From positions 1 to 64,000 of the forward strand of contig JALSSV010000063.1 in the NCBI GenBank assembly GCA_026984045.1: a stretch of 64,000 bases of DNA. Direction: 5' to 3'. The first letter of the stretch is position 1. Every line of letters starts with the position of its first letter. Positions 11,759 through 47,506 of the stretch are shown here, piece by piece. Under the pieces are notes generated by a model that was given only the letters and a program-made list of their open reading frames with translations, did no database searches and had not been told where the DNA came from. The stretch comes from Chromatiales bacterium (lineage in GTDB: Bacteria > Pseudomonadota > Gammaproteobacteria > UBA6429 > Thiohalophilaceae). The translations under genes were made by a program, and so were the position numbers.

Positions 11759-11812
11759 TGTGATGTATCCGGTTGACGAGACGTACCGCACCGAGGCGTT
11801 GCAGTCCGCTGA

Positions 11813-12029
11813 CCAAATCGCTGTTCCGAATGCCACGATACCATGGGAGGTGCACGCAGCCCTCACGGCAGGGATGGCGATTCGTGACCTTCGGCCTCAT
11901 GGATGCGGCCGTAGAGCCTACAGGGAGGTATTCACGGCGCGTCACGAAACGCCATCCCTGCCGTGAGGGCGGGCCTGATGATTCAGACAGCATCGCAATA
12001 ATGGCCGGGAATTCGAAACAGTGATTTGG
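11813..12029. repeat. Copy A of a nested palindromic repeat: 112-bp core unit in an outer inverted-repeat shell (inverted orientation)
   Basis: Outer ends 11813-11831 and 12011-12029 are inverted repeats matching at 17 of 19 bases. Inside lies a unit of exactly 112 bp (11859-11970) with 30-nt arms (11859-11888 and 11941-11970). The outer 21 bp of the arms pair perfectly, then one mismatch and eight more pairs follow. The 52-bp centre (11889-11940), read on the minus strand, matches copies B and C at about 46 of 52 positions. It can form two small hairpins. The element fills the gap between mscS and nagZ. It contains no ORF and no transposase. Confidence 0.85.
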
Positions 12030-37103: not shown

Positions 37104-37126
37104 GGCGGGCTACCAGCTACCAGCTA

Positions 37127-37337
37127 AATGGAAGTTCCAAATACCCGACCACTGAGGCAAGCGTGCCCGATTTCAACACCGCCCTCTGGGACAGAGACTC
37201 GTTTCGTGCCACGCCGTGAATACATCCCTGTAGGCTCGACGGCCGCATCCCTGCGGCCGACGGTCACGAAACGAGTCTCTGTCCCAGAGGGCTCAGTGTA
37301 CACAATGAACCATGGTCTGGTATTTGGAACTTTCATT
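37127..37337. repeat. Copy B of the nested palindromic repeat
   Basis: Outer inverted ends of 25 bp (37127-37151 and 37313-37337) match at 23 positions. The 112-bp unit is 37181-37292. Its arms (37181-37208 and 37265-37292) are perfectly complementary over 28 bp, then one mismatch and one more pair. The 52-bp centre (37211-37262) differs from copy C at one base only. It contains TACATCCCTGTA and GGCCGCATCCCTGCGGCC, two hairpins with the same TCCC loop. The element lies between the convergent HDOD and lysS genes. Confidence 0.9.
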
Positions 37338-37354
37338 CAGCAGCCACCGCATAA

Positions 37355-37378
37355 TCGCGGCGGGGGCGCCGCTCCTAC
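37355..37378 (-). repeat. GTAG-type REP hairpin
   Basis: On the minus strand this reads GTAGGAGCGGCGCCCCCGCC followed by GCGA, a GTAG head plus a GC-rich stem-loop, the shape of REP sequences mobilised by RAYT (TnpA-REP) transposases in Pseudomonas and relatives. No RAYT gene is in the window. Confidence 0.75.
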
Positions 37379-37394
37379 GGGGAATGGTCATTCA

Positions 37395-37416
37395 TCGCGG
37401 CTTGCGCCGCTCCTAC
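37395..37416 (-). repeat. GTAG-type REP hairpin, second copy
   Basis: A second REP, 16 bp from the previous one and in the same orientation, with the loop sequence GCAA instead of CCCC. Head GTAGGAGCGGC and tail GCCGCGA are kept. Its neighbour at 37428-37464 is a half copy of the heptad-ended element. Confidence 0.75.
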
Positions 37417-37427
37417 ACAAAAAATCC

Positions 37428-37464
37428 CTTTGCGTTCTCTGCGTCTTTGCGCCTTTGCGTTGAA
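37428..37464. repeat. Half copy (right end) of the heptad-ended element
   Basis: A 37-bp run of imperfect heptads, CTTTGCGTTCTCTGCGTCTT and onward, almost identical to the right end of the complete element at 39064-39200. No matching left end is found between here and the HDOD gene. It lies 36 bp from the lysS stop. Confidence 0.7.
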
Positions 37465-37499
37465 AACCCGGCCACACCGCGGCACTTCGGTAACGGCCT

Positions 37500-47145: not shown

Positions 47146-47278
47146 GAGGAACCCGGCTGAAAATCAATGACTTGAGCGCATGACGGCCCGGATCGGACAG
47201 ATGGCGGGCCGCCTCCACAAAAGCTGGTAACATTACCGGCTGACGGGCGGCAGGTCAATTGTTGCCAAAGTCGCCAAT

Positions 47279-47471
47279 CCGAATTTCCAAAAGACTTCTG
47301 GCTACGGGTTCAGCATCTGGTTCGCCCTTGGAGTCGGGGAGACGTTTCGTGACACGCCGTGAATACATCCCTGTAGGCTCGACGGCCGCGTCCCTGCGGC
47401 CGACGGTCACGAAACGTCTCCCCGACTCCAAGGGCTCTGTGCGTGTAGCAAGCAGAAAACAAGGAATTCGG
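47279..47471. repeat. Copy C of the nested palindromic repeat
   Basis: The 112-bp unit is 47324-47435. Its arms (47324-47353 and 47406-47435) are perfectly complementary over all 30 bp. The centre (47354-47405) differs from copy B at one of 52 bases. The shell ends are CCGAATTTCC (47279-47288) and GGAATTCGG (47463-47471), more diverged than in copies A and B. It lies between the divergent alaC and Mth938-like genes, within their shared 361-bp upstream region. Confidence 0.88.
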
Positions 47472-47506
47472 GACGGCCATTTTTACCTGACGGTTGGGAG
47501 TCCCCG

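Follow-up and report, generated by a model that had tools for sequence, protein, structure and literature searches.

Results

The window, that is the whole 64,000-nt stretch of a Chromatiales bacterium contig analysed here, contains three units of exactly 112 bp with 30-nt arms, at the positions and with the dimensions given in the original prediction. In copy A, where 21 continuous matched base pairs had been described, 29 of the 30 arm pairs are Watson–Crick, arranged as an unbroken run of 21, one mismatch and a run of 8. The centre of copy A is in the opposite orientation to those of copies B and C, a point absent from the prediction. Also missed were the enclosing MITE-like elements with TIRs. 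The features are as follows; for each element, the strand given is the one with GGA in the loops, the putative RNA strand.

11814..12028, + strand: MITE-like element A, about 215 bp; TIR pair located, family homology over 11811-12027
11814..11834, + strand: left TIR of element A (CAAATCGCTGTTCCGAATGCC), by TIR location and also by genome pattern search
12008..12028, - strand: right TIR of element A (CAAATCACTGTTTCGAATTCC on the - strand), by TIR location
11859..11888, + strand: outer arm 1 of copy A, by arm alignment
11941..11970, + strand: outer arm 2 of copy A, 29/30 paired to arm 1, by arm alignment
11893..11910, + strand: inner hairpin 2 of copy A, with loop AUGGAU and its GGA at 11901-11903; the stem has one mismatch here
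11916..11938, + strand: inner hairpin 1 of copy A (GCCUAC-AGGGAG-GUA-UUCAC-GGC), GGA at 11924-11926
37125..37339, - strand: MITE-like element B with TIRs, by TIR location
37181..37292, - strand: 112-bp structured unit, copy B, by coordinates, centre orientation and covariance model
47267..47483, - strand: MITE-like element C; left TIR weak, with 8 mismatches
47324..47435, - strand: 112-bp structured unit, copy C, by coordinates, centre orientation and covariance model

A second dispersed repeat adjoins copy B at 37341-37468 of the window, and has dozens of matches in the same-genus genome G001.

We searched the genome with a covariance model of the unit and found 57 copies, far beyond chance; DNA similarity search alone found at least 40. 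Across 51 of these copies, 97% of arm cells are Watson–Crick and 26 copies have perfect 30-bp arms, while the outer 20 nt are only 51% alike between copies, compared with 92% for the 58-nt centre. Over 38 of the genome's own copies the Watson–Crick fraction was about 98%, and about 14 of the 30 arm pairs were found as three or four Watson–Crick pair types. The same holds beyond this genome: in a set of 144 elements drawn from many genera, palindrome scores had a median of 22, which fell to 6 when arms of different elements were paired. The centre is kept across gammaproteobacterial genera, whereas the arms are unrelated between genera yet self-complementary. Compensated arms around a fixed centre, in the own copies and in many genera, thus bear out the original proposal that the pairing matters, for which such a search of the genome and its relatives had been suggested, and argue against the alternative that the units are fragments of one repeat with a fixed stem. 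We also considered whether the core had inserted into pre-existing palindromes, and reject this for the present genome, where arms and flanks follow one family consensus.

The centre consists of two successive hairpins, also overlooked originally. The sequence of hairpin 1 hardly varies, whereas in hairpin 2 only the loop is fixed, the stem being free in sequence but co-varying. Changes on both sides of the inner stems numbered 124, compared with 33 in shuffled and 15-41 in slid controls. Both loops read CANGGANG on one strand (the reverse of the TCC strand), the two N positions being the only ones that vary; on the TCC strand, TCC is flanked by a fixed T and a closing C-G. This loop pattern was seen in 39 of 39 own copies, in 189 elements and in a later set of 44; since the pattern used to retrieve loci already included the loop of hairpin 1, it is the hairpin 2 loop that provides a fair test of conservation. 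The distance from GGA to GGA is 20 nt in 116 of 124 elements, and the predicted fold is very stable (about -80 to -95 kcal/mol).

Extended copies occur in two genera, with at least five in this genome and two in the relative G012. An inner loop of each (that of hairpin 2 in own copies, that of hairpin 1 or both in G012) contains a homologous module some 54 nt long, which contributes two further GGA hairpins. Most of these read CAGGAYG; the CsrB motif is CAGGA(U/A/C)G (PMC5027483). Two own copies (L289, L293) have lost hairpin 2. Elements have (C)ANGGA(NG) in hairpin loops and in pairs, as expected of a CsrA/RsmA-binding RNA. The published high-affinity CsrA/RsmA consensus, located in hairpin loops, is RUACARGGAUGU (PMC7937890), against which hairpin 1 reads UACAGGGAUGUA. 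In sequence, the CANGGANG loops match the CsrA/RsmA site.

If one strand is selected as a folded molecule, that strand should tolerate G·U better than A·C. Among residual arm mispairs read on the GGA strand in 92 de-duplicated elements, G·U and A·C occurred 112 and 27 times, respectively (p=2e-13), and 27 and 7 times in a stricter set. The excess was seen again (44:10, p=3e-6) in 34 arms taken from 40 stretches retrieved later, a few of which seem to repeat already sampled genomes, so that the two sets are not fully independent. When arms of different elements were paired as a control, the G·U/A·C ratio was near even (1.18); hairpin 2, with 4 G·U and 3 A·C, had too few mismatches for comparison. 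A fourfold excess of G·U on one strand favours a folded single strand bearing the GGA loops, most simply RNA. G·T also beats A·C in single-stranded DNA, so the strand test alone is no proof of RNA, and a transcription-linked C-to-T bias would push mispairs the same way. The original prediction did not decide between selection for pairing and copying of the arms from each other; the G·U excess points to a folded single strand, and copying from arm to arm may contribute as well, since perfect arms are common and so are pair swaps of the transversion type. By eye, no promoter or terminator of their own was recognised in the elements.

Most copies lie inside an MITE-like element about 215 bp long whose TIRs are close to TAAATAGCTGTTCCGAATACC, though not all copies show both ends; where both TIRs were found, the length is 208-215 bp in most copies. 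The elements are multi-copy, of fixed length, without a gene and bounded by TIRs, as MITEs are, and their ends often read cTA...TAg, that is TA-like. In the few loci read, no partner transposase was recognised between matching TIRs; the genome has one Y1_Tnp gene. A same-genus genome has shorter matching spacers in which copies A and C are absent: spacer A is 72 bp there versus 306 bp, too diverged for a readable junction, and spacer C is 43 versus 246 bp, compared by length only. For copy B only one flank was found in the same-genus genome, and these comparisons yielded no clean empty site. Relative G012 has more than 100 such TIR ends; its elements with the same TIRs (L297, L298, L299, L300) span about 86 to 308 bp, and some are without the structured core. 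In other genera the core is flanked by other inverted repeats, or by none. In one locus (L342, G467:C1:94000-95800), five element copies stand in tandem with a spacing of about 227 bp.

According to gene calls made with a simple codon model, the own copies are intergenic with no orientation bias to flanking genes (++ 16, -- 14), and are depleted between divergent genes (6 of 49 classified intergenic own copies; 11 of 107 in a wider set).

The pattern AATACNTCCNTGTAGGCTCG matches at least 119 loci. Among the 80 matches listed, nearly all are titled Gammaproteobacteria, one contig being titled only Proteobacteria, and the genera include Rheinheimera, Stenotrophomonas, Marinobacter, Methylomonas and Halopseudomonas; Yersinia similis is also present. 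The core model finds the element in 51 of 276 genomes of the class, patchily and often in 20 or more copies each. All positives of a phylum-level search belonged to the same class, but other-class genomes among its negatives were uncounted and it therefore provides no control. One weak match, in Shewanella, came from a plasmid search, and no element was found in the phages and E. coli genomes searched.

Two CsrA-family genes are present in this genome, one of them near-canonical in sequence. Across the class, csrA was found in 50 of 51 element-bearing genomes and in 192 of 225 others (p=0.009), a difference confounded by shared ancestry that lends the CsrA reading weak support. Genome G212, a 270-contig assembly, has 9 copies (for example locus L321) and no csrA was found in it.

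Discussion

The structure, its covariation, the conserved loops, the strand asymmetry, the dispersal and the presence of csrA genes are shown above, whereas transcription of the elements, CsrA binding and a regulatory effect are inferred. The reading we favour, with a probability of roughly 0.6, is that of a mobile, structured RNA element with two CsrA-type sites, predicted to bind CsrA. Against it speak the failure to recognise a promoter or terminator by eye, the indifference of the own copies to the orientation of flanking genes, and the modelling of Ysr224 on the opposite strand. The original interpretation stands as regards pairing, and lacked the enclosing element, the two GGA hairpins and the kinship with YPAL/RU-2 described below.

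In this reading a small mobile element, itself non-autonomous, would carry the 112-bp unit as its structured core. A transcript of the GGA strand would form a long outer stem, capped by a junction from which two hairpins project. As each hairpin would present CANGGANG, a single RNA could accommodate one CsrA dimer, and extended copies would offer further CsrA-type sites. The outer stem and the stem of hairpin 2 would need only pairing, and their sequence would therefore drift with compensation, possibly helped by arm-to-arm copying. Transcribed dispersed copies may bind and titrate CsrA, or may bring CsrA to the transcripts that carry them. More tentatively, the elements may make up a class-wide mobile family that multiplies CsrA/RsmA-binding RNA sites, forming a distributed, evolvable sponge of tens of copies per genome, in which loop-inserted hairpin modules raise the number of sites and transposition rewires the Csr/Rsm network. 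If true, this would join the small mobile repeats of bacteria with global CsrA/RsmA regulation, and would give a reason why one core is kept across genera while the arms vary freely. The CsrA reading makes a direct prediction for existing RIP/CLIP data.

The folded strand might instead be single-stranded DNA, with a transposase or another protein recognising the two-hairpin structure (as in REP/RAYT or attC) and the GGA loops serving as recognition sites. Tolerance of G·T over A·C in DNA hairpins, the dispersal in many copies, the lack of window copies A and C from the matching same-genus spacers and the indifference to gene orientation would all fit. We nevertheless regard this as unlikely, as an element between TIRs with TA-like ends has the form of a double-strand DDE-type MITE, the genome has only the one Y1_Tnp gene, and the loop variation fits the CsrA consensus exactly, with the extra modules repeating the CsrB motif. 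A passive palindrome, in which hairpin template switching copies arm into arm with no selected function and the centre is kept only by recent amplification, predicts no strand asymmetry and is strained by the two mispair counts; neither a centre conserved between distant genera with unrelated arms, nor the co-varying stem of hairpin 2 with its fixed loops, is what it would lead one to expect. Quasi-palindrome correction is known in bacteria, half of the 51 own copies have perfect arms, and many swaps are transversion pairs with no route through G·U, all of which speak for such copying; as the whole explanation it seems to us very unlikely.

It is also possible, though quite unlikely, that the hairpin acts mainly in cis at transcript ends, on either strand and without CsrA, as an mRNA stabiliser or as a transcription or RNase III processing site, roles proposed for BIME, ERIC and YPAL. 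The intergenic position of the copies, their depletion between divergent genes, the very stable fold and the reported influence of YPAL on the stability of upstream transcripts (PMC2229807) agree with this, but the invariant loops, their regular spacing and the added GGA hairpins would be left unexplained. A cis effect at transcript ends is compatible with the CsrA reading, beside which it could exist as a side effect.

Whether the family had been described was left open originally. It is not wholly undescribed, since Yersinia YPAL/RU-2 (Rfam RF02770, Ysr224) is, by model alignment and loop sequences, a distant member; the arms are free, and this is not a fixed-stem repeat. The published 168-nt RU-2 (PMC2759123) contains the same two hairpins, with loops AAGGAT and ATGGAT. 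The Ysr224 model aligns to copies here over its full length, with E down to 1.9e-6; the own copies score 21-39 bits (best 38.5), below the Rfam gathering cut-off of 70, while the Yersinia similis loci found with the same pattern score 127-130 bits. The arms of YPAL/RU-2 are unrelated to those here, and the elements differ in being about 215 bp long with TIRs, RU-2 being described as about 168 bp with internal inverted repeats; a CsrA role goes unmentioned in the passages covered. Ysr224, a relative with a reported RNA, is modelled on the TCC strand, at odds with the GGA strand inferred here. At curated cut-offs Rfam gave no match in the 64-kb window, and long matches to eukaryotic miRNA and lncRNA at permissive E-values were set aside as chance matches to a hairpin.

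REP, BIME and ERIC sequences are, like the elements here, dispersed, intergenic and palindromic, and complementary changes in the stem are seen in some GTAG repeats too (PMC3733652). REPs, however, are tagged hairpins of 20-40 bp with RAYTs; the unit here has 112 bp, a three-way junction and free arms, lies within TIRs, and so falls outside the REP/BIME definition. In the part of the literature covered, we found no text joining CsrA with such repeats. The prediction for RIP/CLIP data bears on Pseudomonas putida: each of its three Rsm proteins co-purified with intergenic stretches beside ISPpu8 and with a 'long palindromic region' (PMC7937890), possibly but not necessarily a member of this family; in strain KT2440 these sites are downstream of PP_3547 and next to ISPpu8 (PMC7937890).

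TwoAYGGAY RNA (RF01731), proposed to bind CsrA from its two motif matches (PMC4333381), has a similar plan with two terminal AYGGAY-type loops; its model gave no match to six copies at E up to 5. Nor did the elements have an Rfam match to CsrB/CsrC or RsmX/Y/Z. These RNAs resemble the elements in carrying GGA in the loops of several hairpins, and the extended copies share the CAGGAYG motif of CsrB. CsrB/CsrC and RsmX/Y/Z, however, are single dedicated sRNA genes under GacA/UvrY, in contrast to the dispersed mobile repeat with a long outer stem described here.
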